A DNA stretch of 64,000 nt from Faecalibacterium taiwanense (GTDB lineage Bacteria > Bacillota > Clostridia > Oscillospirales > Ruminococcaceae). A program made the position numbers and the translations under genes. The notes beneath the pieces were generated by a model. That model searched no databases and was not told the origin of the DNA. It saw only the letters and a list, made by a program, of their open reading frames with translations. Below, piece by piece: positions 18,571 through 30,516 of this stretch (the first letter of the stretch is position 1; each line of letters opens with the position of its first letter). The DNA lies in contig NZ_CP155552.1 of assembly GCF_036632915.2 (NCBI RefSeq), forward strand, positions 2,891,390-2,955,389, given 5' to 3'.

Positions 18571-20483
18571 ATGATGAAAAAAATCTCCCGCCGCTCCTTT
18601 TTGCAGGCTTGCGGCATTGCAGCAGCCACAGCAGCGCTGACCGCCTGCGGCGGCGGCAAGGCTGAAGCCGACAAGAGCAGCAGCCAGAACGGCAAAATTC
18701 AGATCACCTTTTATCTGTGGGATCGCTCCATGATGAAAGAGCTTACGCCGTGGCTGGAAGAAAAGTTCCCGGAGTATGAGTTCCACTTCATTCAGGGCTT
18801 CAACACCATGGACTACTACCGCGATCTGCTGAACCGTGCGGAGCAGCTGCCGGATATCATCATCTGCCGCCGCTTCTCCCTGAACGATGCGGCTCCTCTG
18901 GCAGAGCACCTGATGGACCTGAGCACGACTGAGGTTGCAGGCACCTTCTATTCCAGCTACCTGAACAACAATCAGGAGCCGGACGGTGCGATCCGCTGGC
19001 TGCCCATGTGCGCCGAGGTGGACGGCACGGCAGCCAATGTTGATCTGTTTGCTCAGCACAACATCCCCCTGCCTACCAACTATGCCGAGTTCGTGGCGGC
19101 TATTGATGCCTTTGAAGCTATCGGCATCAAGGGCTATCAGGCAGACTGGCGGTATGACTACACCTGTCTGGAAACCATGCAGGGCAGTGCTATCCCGGAG
19201 CTGATGAGTCTGGAGGGCACCACATGGCGCATGAACTACGAGAGCGAGACCGAGGACGGCTCCACCGGTCTGGACGATGTGGTATGGCCGAAGGTCTTTG
19301 AAAAATATGAGCAGTTCCTCAAGGATGTGCGGGTGCAGCCCGGTGACGCTCGGTTGGAGTTGAACCCCATTGCCAAGCCTTTCTATGAGCGGCAGACCGC
19401 CATGATCCGCACCACCGCAGGCATAGCGGATGTAATGCCTGACCAGTACGGCTTTAACGCATCTATTCTGCCCTATTTCGGCGAGACTGCCAACGATAGC
19501 TGGCTGCTGACCTACCCCATGTGTCAGGCGGCAGTTTCCAGCACAGTAGCGCAGGACGAAGCAAAGCTGGCTGCTGTGCTGAAGGTACTTGAGGCTGTGT
19601 ACAGTGCAGAGGGTCAGAGCAAGATGGCTGGCGGTGCTGCTGTACTGTCTTATAACAAGGAGATCAATATTACCTCCTCCACTTCTCTGGAACATGTTGC
19701 GGATATCATCAGCGCAAATCATCTGTATATGCGTCTGGCCTCCACCGAGATCTTCCGCATTTCGGAAGATGTAGGACACAAGATGATGACCGGCGAATAC
19801 GATGCCAAGGCCGCATACGATGCGTTCAATGAGCAGCTGGTCACCCCAGAGCGGACCCCGAAGCCGAGGTGCTGTTCACCCAGAATACCGCATACTCCAT
19901 CGACATGACCAACCACGGCAGCGCTGCGGCTTCCTCGCTGATGAACGCCCTGCGCGCCACCTATGATGCGTCTATTGCAGTCGGCTATTCGCCGCTGGTG
20001 TCCACCTCCATCTACTGCGGCGAGTACAGCAAGCAGCAGATCTTGTGGGTGATGGCCGGCAACTACGCTGTCTCACAGGGGGAATATACCGGTGCAGAGC
20101 TGCGGCAGATGATGGAGTGGCTGGTAAACGTGAAGGACAACGGCGCAAACCCCATCCGGCACCGGAATTATATGCCCGTGACCAGCGGCATGGAATACAA
20201 GGTGACCGAATACGAGCAGGGCAAGTTCCGTCTGGAAGAGCTTACCATCAACGGTGCACCGCTGGACGACACCGCCACCTATACCGTATTTGTGGCGGGC
20301 ACTGATGTGTGGATAGAAAACGAGGTCTACTGCAACTGCCCCATGCCGGAGAACCTGAAAGCTAAGCGGACGGAATACGCCATTGAAGGGGCAGAAAGCC
20401 GCTCCTGCCTGAAGGATTCGCTGGCGGTCAGCAAGCAGTTCCCCGCCCCCTCCGAGTATCTGACCATTGTACAGGGAGAATAA
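18571..20483 (+). CDS. Solute-binding lipoprotein with 5'-nucleotidase-C-like tail, frameshifted
   Basis: Restored length about 637 residues. The N-terminus has RRSFLQACG and a lipobox-like LTAC, so an exported lipoprotein. Residues about 45-425 are an ABC-type extracellular solute-binding fold (QITFYLWDRSMMKELTPWLE). The tail (SQGEYTGAELRQMMEWL, YKVTEYEQGKFRLEELTING) resembles the 5'-nucleotidase C-terminal domain. The frame breaks at about 19851 (one G apparently missing in the codon after PE) and continues to 20483. No permease genes follow; instead there is a sensor kinase, so it probably works as a ligand receptor for signalling. Confidence 0.7.
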
Positions 20484-20487
20484 ACTC

Positions 20488-23033
20488 TTGAAAAATGAAA
20501 CTAAGATGCGGCCTGCGATAAAAAACCGTATCCTCGCAGTTTTGGCAGTGCTGCTGCTCGGCGTCAGTATTTTGACAAGCTACGTTGTCTTTACAGATTT
20601 CATGTCGCACACCATCTACGAGGAAAGCACTGCACACCTTACGGAGATCTACCATCAGGCAAACCAGACCCTTTACAATAAGGTATCCCTCAACTGGCGC
20701 GTCATGCGGATGTGGACACCTTATCTGGAAAGTGCGCAAAGCGATGCCGATGTCTGCGCTTTCCTTGCACAGGCAAAAGAAGAATACCATTTTACAGATT
20801 TTTTCTTCGTCTCACGGGATGGCTCCTATATCACGCTGGACGAAGAACGAGGCTATCTCGATCTGGGACGAATGCTGTCGCAGCTGGTTCTGGAGCAGCA
20901 GCCTATCGTGGCAAACTCGGTGGTACCGGACAAGCCGGAGATTATGGTGTTTGCAGTCCCCACGGAAAAAGGCAGCTATCAGGGCTTTGATTACGAGGCC
21001 ATTGCCGTCACCTACAACAACAAAGATCTGGTGGACTCCCTGAAGATCTCTGCCTTTGAGGGACACGGCAGCACCTTTGCCGTGCTGCCGGATGGCCGTG
21101 TGGTACTGGACAGCAGCAGTGAAGATATGCGCGGCGTGCACAACATCCTTGCCATGCTCAAAAATTCGGCTGGCTTTACGGACGAACAGATCACTGCCCT
21201 GCAAAAGGCTTTTGCCGCCGGGAAGCCCGGCAACCTTGAGTTTTCCATCAATGGCACCGGCTATTACATGGTTTACGGCTCAGCTTCTTTCCAGAACTGG
21301 ACGATCCTTGGCATAGCGCCTAAAGCTATCGTGAATGCCAACATGAACCGGCTGCAATACACCACCATGGCTGTGATAACCGGCATCGTGGGGATACTGG
21401 CCGTTACTATCTTACTGCTGGTGGTACAGAACAACCGGCAGAAGCTGCGGAAAAAGGATCAGCAGCTACTGGCGCGCGAGGAGTTGTTCTCGAATCTTTC
21501 TCGCAATGTGGACGATGTGTTCCTGATGATCGACACCGAAACCAGCAAGGTGGAATACGTCAGTCCCAATGTCCAGCGCATTCTGGGCATTTCCCCGAAG
21601 CGGTGCAAGAGGATTTTCACGTCCTATACTCTGCTGGAGACGATAATTGCGCACCGCAGCTGGAAAACCTGATGCAGATGGAGCAGGGCGTTCAGCAGGA
21701 ATGGGATCGAGACTTTATCCATCAGGAGACCGGCGAGTCCCGCTATATCCATGTGACCGGCTTTATCAATGATGTGCAGGGCGCAAAAAAGTGCATCGTG
21801 GATCTGTCTGACCGCACAGGCGAGCACCAGACCACGCTGGCTGTGGAAGCCGCGCTGGAAGTAGCCGAAAAGGCCAGCAAAGCCAAGACGGACTTCCTTT
21901 CCAACATGAGCCACGATATCCGCACCCCCATGAATGCTATCATCGGCATTACCACTCTGATGAAAAACGAGCTGCACGAGCCGGAAAAGCTGGCCGAGCA
22001 TCTGGGCAAGCTGGAAACATCCGGCCAGCTTCTGCTGGGCATCATCAACGATATTCTGGATATGAGCCGGATTGAGAGCGGCAAGACTACCCTGAATGTG
22101 GAAAAGATGAACCTGCCCCAGCAGGTCAGCCAGCTGGACAGCGTTATTCGCCAGCAGGCAAGCCAGCGCCGCCAGACCTTTACGGTAAACACCCTTGTGC
22201 AGCACGAAAACGTACTGGCCGACCCCAACCGCCTAAATCAGGTGCTGATGAACATCCTCTCCAACGCGGTCAAGTACACGCCCACCGGTGGGTACATCCG
22301 GCTGGATGTAGATGAGCTCACCCATACCGAGCATTACGCCAAATACCGCTTTGTGGTGCAGGATAACGGCATCGGCATGAGCGAGGAGTTCCAAAAGACC
22401 CTTTTTGAACCCTTTACCCGCGAGGAAAAATCCGGCACCAACAAGGTGCAGGGCACCGGCCTTGGCATGGCTATCACCAAGAGCATCGTAGACCTGATGG
22501 GCGGCTCCATCAGCGTGGAGAGTGCCACCGGCAAGGGCACCCGCTTTGAGGTCGTGCTGGAATTCCCCATTGATGCCGAGGCAGACACGGCACAAAAGGC
22601 GCAGGAGCTGCCGGAGGAAACAGAAGACACTTCTCCCCTGTGCGGCATGAAGTTCCTCTGCGCCGAGGATAACGCCCTCAACGCCGAAATTTTGCAGATG
22701 CTGCTGGAGACCAAGGGAGCCAGCTGCACCATCTGCTCCAACGGTCAGGAGATCGTGGATGCGTTTGTCCGCGTCAAGCCCGGCGAGTATGACATGATCC
22801 TGATGGATGTGCAGATGCCGGTGATGGACGGCCTCGAAGCCGCCCGCCGCATCCGCAGCAGCGAAAACCCGCTGGGCCAGGTCATCCCCATCCTCGCCAT
22901 GACGGCAAACGCCTTTTTGGAAGATATGCAGAAGAGCAAGGAAGCCGGGATGGACGAGCATCTGTCCAAGCCCGTGGACATCGACGCGCTGGAACAGGCC
23001 GTCAAGCGCTTCCGCGTTACCCCCCGAAAATAA
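20488..23033 (+). CDS. Hybrid sensor histidine kinase, frameshifted
   Basis: Restored length about 848 residues. Order: membrane helix near the N-terminus, extracellular Cache-like sensor of about 270 residues, second helix (GIVGILAVTILLLVV), PAS-like domain, HisKA with phospho-acceptor His in SNMSHDIRTPMNAIIGI, HATPase (NGIGMSEEFQ, GTGLGMAITKSIVDLMGG) and a C-terminal receiver with Asp in MILMDVQMPVMDG. The frame breaks in the CCCC run at 21593-21596, where one C appears missing. A TTG at 20488 or an ATG at 20506 starts it, just after the binding-protein gene. Likely senses the binding protein loaded with ligand. Confidence 0.75.
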
Positions 23034-23147
23034 ATAGTGGAATCGCACGGTTTCGCAGATGACCGACACCCACGACCTAGCAGGGCCGCCCATTTGCGGC
23101 CCAGCTCTTTTTTGTGAGAGAGCAATCATAATGAATCAAAGTATTGG

Positions 23148-25102
23148 ATGGTATTGCGTATGGAACAACAGCCAAATAAAATCCAGCCTATGTTGCTATC
23201 GGCACTTGCCCAATTGAGCGCCTGCCTGATCGTCTGGAATTTTCATATTCCAAATCCAAATATCGTGCTTTTTGTTGTTCTTTCTGCTGTGCTCGTGAAA
23301 TACGGCTATGCAGCAGGAATCGTAAGCGGCCTCATTGCATTCCTATACTCCGCGTTTTTCTTTTCTACCGACCACAGCTTTTTCTTTACACCTCTTTGAA
23401 CCTTCATAAGCTCATTGTGATCGGCCTTGGTATTGCTGCGAACATTCTGCTGATCGGTCGCCTGCCAAGGCAGGTCGAGCGCTCTAGCATGGAAAAGGCG
23501 CAGGCCGAAGCCGAGGAAAAGCTTCAGGAAACAACAGAGAGCTACCGTGCAAAACTTTACCACGATGTCTTGACTGGCGCATACAACCGCCGCTATTATG
23601 AAGATATCGCATCCCGTATCGTCGGCCCTGCAGGCATCGCGCTGATGGATGTGGACGATTTCAAAATCTGCAACGACACCTATGGACATTACGCCGGAGA
23701 TATGGCACTGGAAACTGCGGCAAATGCCATCCGCTCCTGCATCCGAAACGCCGACCTGCTCATCCGCTACGGCGGGGATGAATTTCTGCTGGTGCTGCCC
23801 GGCATTCCGAGCGACATCCTGCAAGCCAAGCTGGAGCAGATCAGAGCCGCCGTGCAGCAGGCTGCTGTACCCGGCTATTCGCATTTTCGCCTCTCACTGA
23901 GCATCGGCGGAACGATGCAGGCCATCACCGACCCGATGGAGAATGCGGTCCGCCGGGCAGACCGGCTGATGTATCAGGCAAAGGGCAGCAAGCGTTCGGT
24001 CGTGGTTGAACTCCCCGAAAACGCACTGACCGCACAGGAAGAACTGGTGGAGGAGAAGCCGCAGATCCTTCTTGTGGACGACTCTGAAATGAACCGCCTC
24101 ATCCTGACCGAGATTCTGCAAGGCGACTACCGTATTCTGGAAGCAAAAGATGGCCGGGAATGTATGGATGCCTTGCAGGCTGAAGCCGGGAATCTTGTGC
24201 TAGTGTTGCTGGACATCAATATGCCGGTCATGGACGGTTTCGAGGTACTCAAGGCTATGAACGCCAACCACACCATCGAGGACATCCCGGTCATCATGAT
24301 CTCCAGTGATGACTCTGACGCTGCAATTCGGAAGTCCTATGAACTAGGCGCAAGTGATTATGTCAATCGACCTTTCGATGCTCGTATCGTCTACCGCCGC
24401 GTGACCAACACCATCAAGCTGTACGCCAAGCAGCGGCGGCTGGTGCAGATGGTGTCAGACCAGATCCGCGCTCGTGAAAATAATACGGATATGCTGGTGG
24501 GTGTACTGAGCCATATCGTAGAGTTCCGCAACGGCGAAAGCGGTGCTCATGTGCGGCATATCCGTATCATTACAGAAATGCTGCTCCACCGTCTATTGGA
24601 GATCAGCAGCAACTACTCGATTTCTGCAGAACAGCAGGATATGATCCCGCTGGCCTCCGCTCTGCACGATATCGGCAAGATCGGCATTGACGAAAAAATC
24701 CTCAACAAACCCGGCAAGCTGACCCCGGCGGAATTTGAGGCCATGAAGACCCACAGTATGCTGGGAGCCGAGATGCTGCATGATCTGGATGAATTTGCCG
24801 AGCAGCCGTTGCTGCAAACCGCCTACGAGATTGCCCGCTGACATCACGAACGCTGGGATGGCCGGGGCTACCCGGATGGACTGAAGGGCGATGAGATCCC
24901 CATCAGCGCACAACTGGTCTCGCTGGCCGATGTGTACGATGCACTGACCAGCGAACGCTGCTATAAGAAAGCGTTTTCCCACGAAAAAGCCGTGCAGATG
25001 ATCCTGAACGGCGAGTGCGGAGCGTTCAACCCGCTGCTAATGCAATGCCTGACAGATATGCAGTCCAAGTTGAAAGAAGAACTGCACCAGCGTCTTGAAT
25101 GA
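23148..25102 (+). CDS. GGDEF-REC-HD-GYP signalling protein, frameshift and in-frame stop
   Basis: Restored length about 650 residues: N-terminal membrane helices, a GGDEF domain with intact RYGGDEF, a receiver domain (LLDINMPVMDG), and an HD-GYP phosphodiesterase domain (ASALHDIGKIGIDEKIL ... HERWDGRGYPDGL). Having cyclic-di-GMP synthase and hydrolase modules together is known, but with a receiver between them is less usual. The frame breaks in a T-run at about 23387. A TGA at 24839-24841 interrupts the HD-GYP domain in frame, just before HHERWDG. After it the frame is open to 25102. Confidence 0.7.
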
Positions 25103-25212: not shown

Positions 25213-25340
25213 ATAGCTTACGCAAGCAATGTTTTCGTCTATACAAAAACACTTTTTGCGTTGCAAAATGCTTGTTGGGGGAATGCCCCAAGCCCCTTTG
25301 ATCTGCATTTTCCAATGCAGGCTGCGCATCCCTTCGGGAC
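25213..25340. repeat. Dispersed two-hairpin element, copy 1
   Basis: Shares TGCAAAATGCTTGTTGGG and AGGCTGCGCAT blocks with 41640-41772. Two adjacent hairpins: TTGGGG-gaatg-CCCCAA (25275-25291) and CTGCATT-ttcc-AATGCAG (25303-25320). Stems differ between copies but remain paired. Possible structured RNA or protein-binding element carried by ICEs. Confidence 0.55.
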
Positions 25341-25345
25341 GCTTT

Positions 25346-25471
25346 TTATCCGGTGATGTGCTCCGGGTCGTTGAGGACTTGTATGAGGTGAGAAGCGGCT
25401 TCTGCCAGAGAAGCATACTTCATCTGTTCCGGGACAGGCGCATCCAGAAACGAAATGCCCCATTCCTGCAT
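25346..25471 (-). pseudogene. Short ICE-type coding remnant
   Basis: A 41-residue frame (MQEWGISFLDAPVPEQMKYA...) ends at 25346 next to the hairpin element. It looks like the C-terminus of a conserved mobile-element protein but no upstream domain or ribosome site is present. Family not recognised. The flanks (25153-25212 and 25472-25689) hold nothing else I can support. Confidence 0.35.
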
Positions 25472-25689
25472 ACAGAAAAAGCTAATTTGAACAAGCTACG
25501 CGGGATGCAGCATAGAAAAGTGGCTCATCGAGCGTATAGACGATAAATGCGAAAGCAAATACGACCAGTACACACAATTGTTTTCAAGATTGGCGAAAGA
25601 TATTAACACTTTAGCTAAAGCATGATAGCATATAAAGGGGATTTTTTGTTTTCAAAAGTGGTTGTTCCTTTTACTAAGCATGTTTTTGA

Positions 25690-25855
25690 GATGCCGCTGC
25701 TGAGGCAAAGACCCATTCAGTCAGCCTACGGCTGACAGCTTCCTCACAAATGGGAAACCTTTTGAGATGGCACAAAGCGCAAGCTTTTCCCTTAGGGAAA
25801 GGTAGCAATTGCGAAGCAAATGACGAAAGAAGTTTCCGCCCTCAGTCGGTATTAG
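25690..25855. repeat. Degenerate MITE-like palindromic element
   Basis: Contains hairpins gtcagcc-tac-ggctgac (25720-25736) and ttttccc-tta-gggaaa, and a plan similar to the element at 586-719, but without exact terminal repeats. Lies just upstream of the AT-rich RiPP cluster. Confidence 0.4.
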
Positions 25856-25929
25856 TTGCTGACCCAAAGGGATAACCACTTTTTAAAAGTCGCCGAATAT
25901 TATTTTAAAAACAAAGTCGGTTTATCATC

Positions 25930-27573
25930 ATGAAAAGAATCTTTCAATTTTCCCATTGCACATTGCATCTTTACCGAAAAAAGATTATCCTTTTTTCTGT
26001 TCTCAGCATAGGATCTTCGTTAATATCCCTCTTTAACACTTTGTTGTCCGGTCGATTTATTGACTTTTTGGCTTCGCCTAATTGCGTGGAATGGAAACCT
26101 CAACTATGCTACTATTGTATTCTTTTCTTGGCGACTATTATGATAAGTTTTGCGATATCTTTTGCACTCGGGCGAATACGCGAAAAACTTCATACAATGG
26201 TAAGCTACAATATAAACAGACAAATGCTCGTCCACATCCAGCAGATCCCTTTTTCCAAAACTTTTTTTGGACAGTTCACGCATTACTCAGCAACTTCAAA
26301 CTGATTCCAATGAAATCGCTTCATATTGCATAAACGTGATACAAAATGTTCCTGTAAGTTCGGTACGGCTTATTACGGTGAGCGTTATAACATATCAAAT
26401 CAACAAAACAGTATTCGGTATATTACTTATACTAGCTGCACTTTATATCGTCTTCTTTGAAATATTCAAGGGCAAACTATATAATACCACAAGGGAATTC
26501 AAAAACGAGCAAGCCCTGTTCTTTTCTAAAGCACAGGAGCAATTGCGTTATATTAAATTTGTCAAAAGGCACGGGTTGATAGATGTATTTATAAATCGAG
26601 TGGACTTAGCATTTCAATCTCTTTTCAAGACGGCTATGCACGCTCAAATTTTTCAATATATTTTTTCTGGTATTGATTCAATGCTTTTGGCTTTAAGCCA
26701 AATCGGTTTATTCCTTGTAGGAGGTGTAGCCGTACTAAATGGAGAAATGTCTATCGGCGGTTTTACGACAATCAATGTTTATTTCTCTTCTGCATTGGGA
26801 TGTATTAGATATTTTTTTCACTTACTTCCTCTACACAAAATGCATTGGTATCTTTAAACCGTTTGATGGATGTTGCTAAGATGCAATCCGAATCCGACGG
26901 AAAACAAATTGTGTCAAACATCAAGGCTATATACCTACAAGACATATCATTGAGTTTTGACAAACCAGTCTTAAAGTCTTTTAGTGCAGCGTTTTATAAA
27001 GGAAATATATATGCCTTGTGTGGTGATAATGGTACTGGAAAATCCTCGGTATTACATTTAGTTGCAGGGCTGTATAATAATCTTTATGGCGGTAACATTT
27101 ACTTCGACGATTTTGACATCAAGAAATTAAATATGAATTTTTTGAGAAAATCTCTTATTGGCTTTGTTGAGCAGGAGCCGCAGCTTCTCGCAGACAAAAT
27201 CATTTCAAATTTGTATCCATATAACATTAATGAAAATTACGAACCTGAAGAAATCGACGCTGCAATATATTATATTAACAAACTTGGAATGAATGACTGG
27301 CTAGATAAATGTTGTGATGGTTTGAACACATATATAAATGAAAAAAGTGATAATATTTCGGGAGGGGAAAAGCAAAAATTGTCTATTATTCGCGAATTGC
27401 TAAAAAAGCCTCTTGTGCTATTATTGGATGAGCCAACTTCAGCTATGGATGCAGATAGTATAAATACTTTCTTTGAGTTGCTGAATGCGATAAAAAACGA
27501 TACAATTATTATAATTGCCACACATGATTCAAGAGCTTTACATTACTGTGATTCCATTGTACCATTAAAATAA
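25930..27573 (+). CDS. ABC exporter (permease-ATPase fusion), frameshifted
   Basis: Restored length about 547 residues: N-terminal transmembrane domain with about six helices, then an ATPase with Walker A GDNGTGKSS, signature ISGGEKQKLS, Walker B VLLLDEPTSAMD and the switch histidine in ATHDSRAL. There is no N-terminal peptidase C39 domain, so leader cleavage must be done elsewhere. The frame breaks at about 26270 (T7GG, one G too many) and in a T7 run at 26812-26818 (one T too few). AT-rich like the following genes. Probable exporter of the modified peptide encoded at 27721. Confidence 0.75.
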
Positions 27574-27649
27574 TTACTTGTCTTTTTGGGCGACAAACCA
27601 CAATTCTTCTGCGAAAGTGAATGCCGAATTTAACGCGATAGACATCCAT

Positions 27650-27685
27650 AGGATTTGACAAAATCCTTAGGTGTTCAGATATGAT
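27650..27685 (+). promoter_or_regulatory. Promoter of the RiPP precursor with palindromic operator
   Basis: TTGACA (27655-27660) and TATGAT (27680-27685) with a 19-bp spacer. The -35 lies inside a perfect 7-bp inverted repeat aggattt-gaca-aaatcct (27650-27667), which could be the binding site of a regulator. The spacing is longer than ideal. Confidence 0.5.
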
Positions 27686-28011
27686 AGTACTGCCAGCCGA
27701 AGAGTAGAAAGGAGTCGATTATGACTACATATATTGGAAATGCCTACGATAACAATACGAATCCGATTGGATTATGCTTGGGACAAATCTCTCCATGTGC
27801 AAAAGATGCGAGTGCCTGCGTTGCAGACTTTGGCGGATGCACCACAAATGTTTCGGGCTGTATTTCTGACGTGTCTATTTGTGGAAGCAATGCTGGGCTT
27901 TGCGGTTTAAATTCCGTTTCTTGTACAGTAAATAGTGAGTCTTGTGGAATTAATACACCTGATTGATAATTGCGCAATTTACGATGTTTTGTTTTGGCTG
28001 GCAGTACTATC
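27683..28011. repeat. 16-bp perfect inverted repeat flanking the precursor gene
   Basis: GATAGTACTGCCAGCC (27683-27698) upstream and GGCTGGCAGTACTATC (27996-28011) downstream. The left arm lies in the 5' leader before the ribosome site, the right arm 30 bp after the stop codon. Either the ends of a small cassette or arms that pair across the mRNA. Confidence 0.85.
27721..27966 (+). CDS. RiPP precursor with nine heptad-spaced cysteines
   Basis: 81 residues. An 18-residue cysteine-free leader (MTTYIGNAYDNNTNPIGL) is followed by nine repeats in which Cys falls at 19, 26, 33, 40, 47, 54, 61, 68 and 75, exactly every seven residues. The residue three after each Cys is Q, D, D, N, D, N, N, N, N. 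There is no CxxC zinc motif and no lanthionine-type Ser/Thr-Cys partner genes. A strong ribosome site (aaaggag) precedes the ATG. With a radical SAM/SPASM enzyme and an ABC exporter adjacent it should be a thioether-modified peptide (sactipeptide/ranthipeptide type). It recalls the clostridial Cys-rich peptides matured by CcpM-like enzymes, from memory only. Confidence 0.85.
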   Translation: MTTYIGNAYDNNTNPIGLCLGQISPCAKDASACVADFGGCTTNVSGCISDVSICGSNAGLCGLNSVSCTVNSESCGINTPD

Positions 28012-28058
28012 TATTTTCTGAACATGTGATGAAGATAACAGTATAAAGGGGGCTATAT

Positions 28059-28421
28059 ATGATTTTTTCAGACGGCTCATATATTCCAACATTTATAATA
28101 TTTTCTGCAACTGGAATTATAATAAAGTACGCTCCCGTGGAATATCCTCTTTTCCATAAAAGCTTTCCGTTCCATAGTTACTACGGTTTCCGTTTTTCCT
28201 TGCCTGTTGATATAAATGAAAAAAACTGGCCTCATATCAAAAGTATTGGAAGTATGATATTTTTTGCTTTTGCAGCTCTTGACCTCATTGTTTTTGTATT
28301 AGGCATCTTGAATAGAAGCTCTACATTATATATTTCTTGCACTCAGCATTTATTATTAATTGGTGTAAGTTTTTCATTTGGCGGAATGATACTAGCTGCG
28401 AACAAGCATAAGGAGGATTGA
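28059..28421 (+). CDS. Small membrane protein, possible SdpI-like immunity protein
   Basis: 120 residues with about three membrane helices. The middle stretch YYGFRFSLPVDINEKNWPHI followed by a helix resembles the C-terminal part of SdpI-type immunity proteins (conserved GxR...N..W pattern). Ribosome site aaaggggg before the ATG; the maturase gene begins four bases after its stop. Position between precursor and maturase fits immunity or transport. The SdpI likeness is by eye. Confidence 0.6.
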   Translation: MIFSDGSYIPTFIIFSATGIIIKYAPVEYPLFHKSFPFHSYYGFRFSLPVDINEKNWPHIKSIGSMIFFAFAALDLIVFVLGILNRSSTLYISCTQHLLLIGVSFSFGGMILAANKHKED

Positions 28422-28425
28422 ATTA

Positions 28426-29747
28426 ATGAAGTTCTCAAAATATAATATAATTCATACAACCGAAAATCAGGAACATATTTTATTCAACTCCTTATGGGGA
28501 AGTACGTTTGTAATTTCTCCTTCGGTTAAGCAAGCAATAGAATCATCTAATCCGACGTTGCTCACTGAAGAAGAAAATAGACTGTTTATAAAATACAATG
28601 CTTTAATCCCTGACGAATATAATGAATCGTGCATTTATAATCATTTCTATAACAAATCACGCTACGGAAAAAAATGCCTTACGGCAACAGTGCTATTAAC
28701 TTGGTCATGCAATTTTAGATGTATATATTGTTATGAAGGCGCAGGAGAACTGCGTTGTGAAAACATGACAAAAGACAGAGCTGGAGCGATAGCTAATTTT
28801 TTAATCAAATGTTCTGAAGAACAACGAGGTGAACTAATACACGTTGTTCTTTTCGGTGGCGAGCCTCTTTTGAATATAGATGTTGGTTTTCATATGTTGG
28901 GTATTCTCAAAGAGTATTGTTTAACAAGCCATAAGGAATTACAGTGTTCACTTGTTACTAACGGTTCTTTATTGACTGAAGAAATTGTTAGTGGATTATT
29001 AAATTATAATTGTAAATTTGTACAAATCACTTTGGACGGACCGGAATATATACACAATTGTCGAAGAGTTGCTAAAGATGGTTCCGGCACATTCCAGAAA
29101 GTTTTGCATGGAATAACTATCATGGAGGAGTTTTGCTCTCAAATACATACTTATATAAGAATAAATGTAGACAAGAACAATGTTGACTCGATTCCGATGC
29201 TTTTGGATACACTCAAAGATTTGGGGATTTCGCATTCACAGGTGGATTTTGGCATAACAAGAGATTCCACATCTGCATGTTCTTCTTACAAAAGCAATTG
29301 CCTTCCTGAAGAGTATCTTCCAGATATTTTAAATGAATTATGGAAATATAGCGAAGCCAATATGTTTTCCAAATATCCACAACCCATGAGAAAGTGGACA
29401 TACTGTGGATTATTTGACGAATACAGTTTTACATTTTCACCTTTGGGTGAATTGTATAAATGTTGGGAGATGGTTGGTGATAATAAACATAAAATGGGTT
29501 ATATAAAGGATGATGGCACTCTTACAGATGTTACTTTTGCATATTATGATTGGTTATCAATCGATCCTTTAAAAGAACCAGATTGTTCCGATTGTAAATA
29601 TCTTCCCATTGTGGTGGCGGGTGCAGGATGTTATCCTATCGGCAAACCGGAACATATCATGCTGCTGGCTGCGAAAAGGTCAAAGGCGTTATCGAGAAGC
29701 AGATAGAAGTATATGTGCGCAGACAAGTACAGTTTCAAAACAACTGA
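28426..29747 (+). CDS. Radical SAM/SPASM peptide maturase, frameshifted near the C-terminus
   Basis: Restored length about 440 residues. The SAM-cluster motif WSCNFRCIYCYEG has Cys95, Cys99 and Cys102 (CX3CX2C); FGGEP follows at 143-147. The C-terminal SPASM region binds auxiliary clusters (YCGLF..., LYKCWEM, CSDCKYLPI). At 29609-29610 one T appears missing. As written, the frame reads on as LPIVVAGAGC to a stop at 29706; with the T it reads LPICGGGCRMLSYRQTGTYH and ends at 29747. The restored form has the CxxxC the family needs. It should install thioether bonds on the 27721 precursor. Spacing and AT content tie it to the small membrane protein gene. Confidence 0.85.
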
Positions 29748-29966
29748 TTGCCTACTTTCACTTTATCAATATACTCAATGTATCGGAATACATCGAATCC
29801 ATGGAATTGCGCAAAAGGTTATTGATGAGTGTCCTATACTGATACTTGACATTCCGATGTACTTTGCCACGGTGCTGCTGTTCTGGTAGAAAAGTCCGAT
29901 ATTGCATTCTGCTTTTTGTGTAGTAAGTGCAATGAAGCCGGATTAAAGTTCGTTTTCATGAGAATA

Positions 29967-30013
29967 TTTCAAGAGCCAAACCTTTGTGCGACACAGAGAT
30001 TTGGCTCTTGAAA
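29967..30013. terminator. Long palindrome, probable terminator of the RiPP cluster
   Basis: Perfect 14-bp stem tttcaagagccaaa / tttggctcttgaaa. The 220 bp between the maturase stop and this hairpin hold no gene I can support. Confidence 0.6.
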
Positions 30014-30048
30014 TACAAGCTGCTTTTTATCAATCGAGCAAGCCGTGC

Positions 30049-30285
30049 TCACCGTGAGTTTTTTAAATATGCATTCAATCCACCGTTTAGCACGAGCTGC
30101 ACATACTCTCGTGGCGCGTTATAAATGAGCCAGTCAAGCTCAGTACGCACTCTTACAAATGGTAGTGTTCCGTCAATGGTATCCTCTACAACATCGCAGT
30201 CGATTGATATCATTGTCCCGTCTGCAAAGCGACATTCTACGTTGCCCGTGTCGATGTTAAATTCACAAGATAAGAGCTTATTCAT
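30049..30285 (-). CDS. Small conserved mobile-element protein (DUF6061-like)
   Basis: 78 residues starting MNKLLSCEFNIDTGNVECRF at an ATG seven bases after ggagg. The acidic beta-rich sequence and the ELDWLIYNAPREYVQLVLNG stretch are like DUF6061 proteins found in Clostridia mobile elements, as far as I recall. No function known. Confidence 0.55.
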   Translation of the reverse strand: MNKLLSCEFNIDTGNVECRFADGTMISIDCDVVEDTIDGTLPFVRVRTELDWLIYNAPREYVQLVLNGGLNAYLKNSR

Positions 30286-30375
30286 AATCAGACCTCCGAT
30301 TTTCACTTTTCAGCGTTAATGCGTTTTTATAAATCTGAATAGTGGGCAGCGGTCATTTGATTATGTAGTGTTACT

Positions 30376-30516
30376 TTATGGCACATGAGCATTGCTGCCG
30401 GGGTTGTCGTTACCGTAACCTTCCAGCAGGTTGATGGCACCCCACACGCCGAGACCGACACCCAGAGCGACAACCAGAGTCTGAAGAACTTCGATAGCAG
30501 AGTTAAAGAATTCCAT
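30376..30516 (-). pseudogene. Truncated maff2-type gene
   Basis: Starts MEFFNSAIEVLQTLVVALG, almost identical to the intact copy at 62559-62774, but homology stops at about 30397 after GNDNPGS. The last few codons come from unrelated sequence. It marks the left limit of a partial ICE copy. Confidence 0.75.

Follow-up and report, generated by a model that had tools for sequence, protein, structure and literature searches.

A candidate radical SAM peptide precursor of the CefA/CefB kind with cysteine at every seventh residue in Faecalibacterium

The locus and its precursor peptide

The window analysed here is a stretch of 64,000 nucleotides from Faecalibacterium taiwanense (contig NZ_CP155552.1), the final 64 kb of a one-contig genome. 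It contains a short gene whose product carries cysteine at every seventh residue, beside genes for an ATP-binding cassette (ABC) exporter, a small membrane protein and a radical S-adenosylmethionine (SAM) enzyme. The short gene is considered here as encoding the precursor of a ribosomally synthesized and post-translationally modified peptide (RiPP), and the radical SAM enzyme as its maturase. The genes occur in the order exporter, precursor, membrane protein and maturase, with the following features:

25930..27573, + strand: ABC exporter, membrane domain and ATPase, in overlapping frames 25930-26304, 26267-26857 and 26845-27573
27655..27685, + strand: possible promoter, TTGACA and TATGAT separated by 19 nucleotides, found by eye and weak
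27683..27701, + strand: left arm of an inverted repeat, 19 nucleotides, 95% complementary to the right arm, with 16 nucleotides exact
27710..27714, + strand: ribosome-binding site AGGAG, 6 nucleotides 5' of the ATG, found by eye
27721..27966, + strand: precursor peptide gene, 81 residues by translation of the open reading frame (ORF)
27993..28011, - strand: right arm of the inverted repeat, 19 nucleotides, pairing with the left arm across the precursor gene
28059..28421, + strand: 120-residue hydrophobic protein, with a strongly hydrophobic stretch at residues 60-87 by a simple hydropathy scan
28426..29706, + strand: CefB-like radical SAM/SPASM maturase, matching NF038107 with 473.6 bits over profile positions 1-403 of 444

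The original prediction of nine equally spaced cysteines is borne out by translation, which places them at residues 19, 26, 33, 40, 47, 54, 61, 68 and 75, so that all eight steps are of seven residues, and the three kinds of neighbour that it named are all present beside the precursor. The nine cysteines fall within 57 residues and are encoded by a mix of TGC and TGT codons. In 200,000 random placements of nine cysteines in a peptide of the same length, the longest equal-step run was 7 (one case) and none reached 9, and the register is therefore not a matter of chance. Among 836 stop-to-stop frames of the window with at least 30 residues and at least two cysteines, the precursor alone has an equal-step run greater than 4. 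The peptide begins MTTYIGNAY, and its 18-residue leader, which includes Y-I-G-N-A-Y, is followed by nine C-x-x-[N/D/Q] units, eight of which continue with x-x-x up to the next cysteine. Asn or Asp stands at +3 after eight of the nine cysteines, the first being followed by Gln (Gln22). The hypergeometric probability of this enrichment is 7.6e-8, or 4.6e-7 allowing six offsets, for a pattern that was spotted before being tested.

The precursor matches no Pfam family and gives no match to the CefA model (NF038108) at expectation values (E) up to 10. The sole NCBIfam model that touches it is TigB (E 0.21, 11.7 bits against a cut-off of 70), which was likewise the only result of the search against RiPP precursor families suggested by the original prediction, the presence of TIGR04065 in the library being unchecked. 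Some other radical modification, for example to cyclopropylglycine as in TigB, could account for that match and for the fourth rank of TigE among the Foldseek matches of the modelled maturase described below. However, the score is far below the cut-off and the residues conserved here are Cys and Asn/Asp, and this explanation is considered very improbable.

The C-x-x-N/D unit in related precursors

Two other systems with a CefB-type maturase beside the precursor provide the basis for comparison. In G013, a genome of the same genus (loci L008 and L165), a CefB gene scoring 616.7 bits adjoins a CefA gene scoring 48.5, both above cut-off; this precursor has the leader METEYLGNAY and steps of mostly five residues. 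In G470, from another family of the class (loci L038 and L166), a CefB-like gene (573.7 bits, below the cut-off of 600) accompanies a pair of precursors whose leader is Y[LI]GNAY and whose steps follow the alternating order 7, 5, 7, 5; these score 26.0 and 25.3 bits against the CefA model, just under its cut-off of 30. Relatives thus have three step layouts: mostly 5, alternating 7/5, and, in the window, 7 throughout. The 7/5 precursors (those of G470 together with P0168, P0172, P0173, P0184, P0185 and P0188) resemble the window peptide in leader, in the C-x-x-N unit and in that about half of their units are seven residues long, but differ in having a period of 12 (7+5), and L166 has two precursors rather than one.

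The window system shares with CefA/CefB (NF038108/NF038107) the Y-[LI]-G-N-A-Y leader of the L008 CefA, many evenly set cysteines mostly followed by N/D at +3, CefB as the best maturase family (over its whole length in the metagenome relative P0026), and an ABC transporter gene beside the maturase or precursor. It differs in its step of 7 throughout rather than 5, in lacking a match to the CefA model, in a maturase score below cut-off, and in the order exporter-precursor-membrane protein-maturase. In a four-sequence alignment, the Y, G, N, A and Y of the leader are invariant, and the window peptide carries the corresponding Y-x-G-N-A-Y, a pattern of our own derived from the L008 CefA and not one of NCBI's. 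As a separate observation, a locus recovered by a CefB-family match (L042, 725-955) encodes a peptide with cysteine at every fourth residue, eight in a row.

Units were counted in 13 precursors (the window peptide, the two of L038, P0148, P0179, P0195, P0196, P0168, P0172, P0173, P0184, P0185 and P0188), a set that omits altered alleles and near copies of P0148. Counting was restricted to inter-cysteine units of at most 8 residues (n=129), three longer ones being dropped. Asn or Asp occupies +3 in 92 of these 129 units and +2 in three, and does not occur at +1, +4, +5 or +6. By step length, +3 is Asn or Asp in 51 of 73 five-step units, 38 of 44 seven-step units, 3 of 10 six-step units and neither of the two four-step units, which carry Asn at +2. 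Five- and seven-residue steps differ in how far away the next cysteine lies but agree in +3, and the constant relation is therefore that between Cys(i) and i+3; in the sequences compared, it is the C-x-x-N/D unit and not the step that is conserved.

Solenoid ladders also show regular spacing of Cys and Asn, and it may be that the ladder seen here stabilises a beta-solenoid or binds metal, while the maturase has another target or acts at just a few positions. The fact that +3 is not always Asn or Asp would be consistent with such a structure. However, +3 is kept at five- and seven-residue steps and in mixtures of the two, so that no single solenoid rung length fits, and a CefB-type maturase adjoins the precursor in three unlike loci. 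A structural or metal-binding role of this kind is therefore considered quite unlikely.

A bolder possibility, which is doubtful but worth stating, is that CefB-type maturases read the C-x-x-[N/D] module and ignore the step. If the maturase disregards the step, evolution could have tuned a poly-thioether rod by spacer length, with x1 almost everywhere, x3 everywhere, or the two in alternation. The window peptide would then stand at the all-x3 end of the range, carrying as many as nine rings of the Cys(i)-Asn/Asp(i+3) type, and the precursor gene, lying between inverted repeats, might be a switch that turns production on and off.

The maturase and the predicted rings

The best model for the window's maturase is CefB (NF038107, the "Cys-every-fifth" maturase), the next best scoring 198.1 bits. 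Comparisons over the whole length were made with P0026, an open-framed metagenome relative of 440 residues that represents a cluster of 1215 member sequences. P0026 scores 524.5 bits against CefB, with residues 1-437 aligned to profile positions 1-437 of 444; judged on P0026, the similarity to CefB is full-length and includes radical SAM and SPASM-type cysteines. The maturase alignment has invariant cysteines at 95, 99, 102, 327, 346, 387, 396, 400 and 416 and a nearly invariant one at 390, a SPASM-type position where P0026 has Phe. A FastTree phylogeny built from 46 sequences groups P0026 with P0033 (support 1.0), at a long distance from both reference loci, and the next two deeper branches are supported at 0.12 and 0.28.

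The CcpM-type class named in the original prediction also combines a radical SAM maturase with a Cys-rich peptide, but its model (TIGR04068) gives only 88.3 bits against a cut-off of 500, and CefA/CefB is the closest class instead. The SCIFF maturase model (TIGR03974) gives 105 bits against a cut-off of 425, and PapB, Clo7bot and TIGR04463 all lie far under cut-off. For PapB (NF047865, cut-off 340), the window's maturase scores 117.3 bits and P0026 scores 125.8.

The predicted fold of P0026 aligns over residues 5-434 to Protein Data Bank (PDB) entry 5wgg, a thioether-forming RiPP enzyme that is the strongest match of the maturase both by sequence and by fold. We take 5wgg to be CteB. CteB is called a ranthipeptide synthase in a review (PMC11002830). 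Foldseek matches of the P0026 model also include SkfB. Residues 7-80 of the model are arranged as E-E-E-H-H-H, an order of three strands and three helices that might correspond to a leader-binding RiPP recognition element (RRE), and the alignments with 5wgg and TigE begin at residues 5 and 1, respectively, but the structure alignment barely tests residues before 78. Three ubiquitin chains matched over residues 2-66 in a solved-structure profile search, with no passing stretch, and were rejected as spurious.

The assignment of the peptide as a radical SAM RiPP precursor accompanied by its maturase and exporter, made in the original prediction, is well supported by the CefA-type leader, the CefB-like maturase and the predicted fold of P0026 relative to 5wgg. 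The interpretation that appears on balance most probable from these comparisons is that the window encodes an all-seven-step variant of the CefA/CefB kind, whose maturase would join Cys(i) to Asn/Asp(i+3). The Y-I-G-N-A-Y leader would bind the N-terminal domain of the maturase, which would then join each cysteine sulfur to the Asn or Asp side chain at +3, most likely at the beta-carbon. The result would be an in-line series of up to nine four-residue rings, each costing 2 Da, with linkers of three residues between them, in a peptide that would leave the cell through the ABC exporter. Its role can only be guessed at, and might be that of a bacteriocin or a signal. The original prediction also derived a rigid ladder of thioether rings from the perfect register; the register is indeed exact here, but relatives alternate 7/5 with an occasional 4 or 6, which weakens the argument drawn from it. 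A rigid ladder of thioether rings is itself a plausible prediction.

There are partial precedents for such rings. Freyrasin (PapA/PapB) is similar in its repeated unit linking Cys to an acidic residue, in its six rings and in a related maturase; its unit is C-x3-D (i+4), with Asp as acceptor and Glu accepted (PMC9413430), whereas the window peptide has C-x-x-N/D (i+3). In the NxxcA ranthipeptide of Streptococcus orisratti, Cys is joined through C-beta to an Asn three residues away (PMC8326336). That peptide has a single ring with Asn before Cys, whereas in the window peptide Asn comes after Cys. Thermocellin, the SCIFF product of CteB, uses Thr at C-gamma as acceptor (PMC11002830). SCIFF peptides have six cysteines in forty-five residues, according to PMC8326336, as opposed to nine in 57 here, and their maturase model scores poorly, as noted above. 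A ranthipeptide assignment (sulfur to C-beta or C-gamma) is suggested through the relation to 5wgg and PapB, in sequence and in modelled structure, and through that relation only.

Alternatively, the same RiPP could bear sactionine rings, from sulfur to alpha-carbon, at +3 or elsewhere, with Asn/Asp serving for recognition only. Radical SAM/SPASM maturases of several chemistries share this fold, as the presence of TigE and SkfB among the matches illustrates, and Asn and Asp are listed among sactipeptide acceptors in PMC8326336. However, the best match by sequence and fold is the presumed ranthipeptide synthase 5wgg, the PapB scores are higher than those for the sactipeptide RumMC family (80.9 bits for the window and 79.2 for P0026), and C-beta precedents exist for both Asn and Asp acceptors. 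Sactionine rings are accordingly judged unlikely.

Several observations weigh against side-chain rings at +3 in a CefA/CefB variant. The locus is closest to CefA/CefB but is formally outside it by the cut-offs: the CefB threshold of 600 is missed by the window (473.6), P0026 (524.5), P0033 (557.8), P0038 (588.1) and P0039 (591.5). The entry title of 5wgg uses the term sactipeptide for its product, although the later review calls CteB a ranthipeptide synthase. The precedent geometries differ, with C-x3-D in freyrasin and the acceptor before Cys in NxxcA. Of the 73 five-step units, 10 have Ala and 7 have Lys at +3; Asn or Asp stands there in just 3 of the 10 six-step units, and the window's own first unit has Gln22. 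The 13 precursors are few, hand-chosen and not independent (the two of L038 are 66% identical, and P0172 and P0188 look alike), and the C-termini of P0168, P0172, P0173, P0184 and P0188 seem truncated or fused. The leader motif also varies, with GNSY in P0184, RLGNAY in P0185, GNPY in P0195 and GNVY in P0196, and precursor and maturase are neighbours only in the window and its L002 copy, in L008/L165 and in L038/L166.

No paper on CefA/CefB was found in the open-licence literature, nor one using C-x-x-N or Cys-repeat wording. CefA/CefB is named in NCBIfam, and the RiPP kind is apparently uncharacterised, the window holding its all-7 form. Comparison of the 5-step, 7/5 and all-7 peptides points to a single ring unit, C-x-x-N/D, whose chemistry is testable with short designed peptides. 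If this is correct, the product would be a modular thioether chain in which the length of the spacer fixes the pitch, a property of use in engineering peptides. It would also add a new class to the peptides exported by a genus that is abundant in the human gut.

State and spread of the gene set

The original prediction spoke of a repaired maturase, and that wording is apt. In the window's maturase gene, the reading frame breaks off near the C-terminus, shortly ahead of the final three SPASM cysteines, and the end of the listed ORF consists of foreign letters. P0026 aligns up to its residue 400 in one frame and over 396-440 in another, and the window's own frame keeps only the conserved cysteines before residue 396. 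The exporter is spread over three frames; in a tblastn search, the open 551-residue ABC protein of L165 matches the window in three pieces (residues 1-106, 112-296 and 293-540) with frame changes. No peptidase domain was seen in family searches of the exporter frames. A close copy of the locus in Faecalibacterium hattorii has an exporter split over two frames and a maturase that lacks residues 41-292. The precursor is intact in both genomes. With both the maturase and the exporter frame broken, the window genome probably does not make the product, and the F. hattorii genome is also unlikely to do so, unless the frame breaks are sequencing errors. By ORF reading, histidine kinase and GGDEF/HD-type genes at 19869-25102 of the window are likewise split over frames, and sequencing errors or general decay are thus both possible.

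Altered precursor alleles are frequent in metagenomes. By reading, all 27 protein clusters of the all-7 gene (P0001-P0025, P0178 and P0193) are shifted, fused, shortened or rearranged, a biased count since the intact all-7 form, encoded by the window itself, was unlisted. The count is less biased for the 5-step G013-type gene, for which 3 clusters (201 members) are intact and 38 clusters (93 members, 27 of them in a single cluster; altered alleles within P0149-P0197) are altered or truncated. Clusters were built at 90% identity, and length limits exclude long representatives. The changes run to dozens of distinct deletions, fusions and frame shifts, as well as at least one inversion with an end inside the precursor gene, and some of these forms may be contig ends or assembly errors. 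In the still-matching stretches of the 27 all-7 alleles, substitutions occur at residues 20, 23 and 41 only, and none falls on Cys or +3. These sequences suggest repeated loss, through cost or lack of need, and altered natural alleles would offer a handle on the peptide's cost or function.

It is rather probable that the locus is a remnant in the window genome, that nothing is made from it, and that the register is a recent legacy of a functional island. The three-frame exporter, the truncated SPASM region, the defects in F. hattorii and the many altered metagenome alleles are consistent with this. On the other hand, the precursor is intact in both genomes, the allele substitutions spare Cys and +3, the intact maturase cluster has 1215 members, and the splitting of other window genes could reflect sequencing error. 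Decay in this genome is compatible with rings at +3 in intact copies: the window's copy is probably nonfunctional, while metagenomes contain intact maturase copies.

The inverted repeat around the precursor gene might act as a switch at the DNA level or, in the mRNA, form a closing stem. In 20 local shuffles of the window, no exact pair of at least 16 nucleotides appeared; the real window has two other exact 16-nucleotide pairs, with 13 and 19 nucleotides between their arms, like ordinary hairpins. At the corresponding position, the 5-step G013 system has a 17-nucleotide repeat (94%) of different sequence (L165, 6597-6613 and 6958-6974); under the limits of the script, its 8-kb contig contains no other exact pair of at least 13 nucleotides. 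No inverted repeat was found at the precursor position in L166. The precursor genes of two unlike Faecalibacterium systems therefore sit between inverted repeats of different sequence. The -10 element of the possible promoter overlaps the left arm; this promoter was not reported by a consensus scan allowing spacers of 16-18 nucleotides, its own spacer being 19.

The locus is an AT-rich accessory RiPP island that has recently moved. Its G+C content is 35% (25930-29710), compared with 52% for the window. The precursor region is present in 2 of 31 genus genomes, the window's and that of F. hattorii, and is absent from the other genome of the same species; the F. hattorii copy (L002) is 99.6% identical over 25269-28539 and 99.8% over 29314-30401. 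From about 30.4 kb, there is a Maff2 family match, with recombinase, relaxase and TraG- and TraE-like genes by ORF reading. This limited distribution, the near-identical copies and the adjacent conjugation-type genes are the grounds for considering the island accessory and mobile. A phage or plasmid origin was also considered and rejected, as 25900-29750 has no near match in the phage or plasmid collection; seven plasmid records matched a CefB protein, all at less than 60% identity.

CefB-like genes are rare in sampled genomes. In the window's family, one of 297 genomes has such a gene at 1e-80 (the window's own); in the class, 2 of 391 do at 1e-100 (the window's own and G470), among 8 listed at 1e-60; in the family of G470, 1 of 32 (G470 itself); and in the phylum, 1 of 398 (the window's own). 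None was found in 395 genomes from the class of G1105, where the control likewise found nothing. These samples do miss members, since G013, with an above-cut-off CefB, is not among the family-sample matches.

The 120-residue membrane protein has no Pfam match and one NCBIfam match (E 0.35) far below cut-off. It could, as a guess, be an immunity protein or export helper; an SdpI-like immunity identity was considered but found no support. The F. hattorii island has an agr-type set of genes upstream of it, with a LytTR regulator, GHKL kinase and AgrB (L167, 5624-8381) and, by eye, a possible 50-residue AgrD (L002, 1339-1491); the three larger proteins have no match in the window. Many genomes of the genus have separate SCIFF-looking peptides, again by eye.

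A scan of viral contigs for cysteine at every seventh residue gave, among the matches listed, mostly low-complexity tandem repeats, with no CefA-like peptide seen. Separately, 23 of 226 viral loci examined have an ORF containing repeats of the kind C-[TP]-C-[ND]-C-N-[YF] (L171, L184, L185, L186, L189, L209, L210, L213, L225, L233, L234, L244, L256, L257 and nine more). One ORF is common to L189, L225 and L244, and L186 and L257 also have one in common, so that not every locus is an independent case. All three of the repeat proteins searched match PHROG 26958 (unknown function); in the annotated phage collection, a search with one repeat protein gave no match. Radical-SAM-like ORFs (identified by motif, longer than 200 residues, one to four per locus) occur in 14 of the 23 repeat loci and in 1 of the 203 without a repeat, and radical SAM families match all three neighbours tested in L189. 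Going by these sequences, the repeat loci look like a phage-borne radical SAM system for peptide or protein modification.
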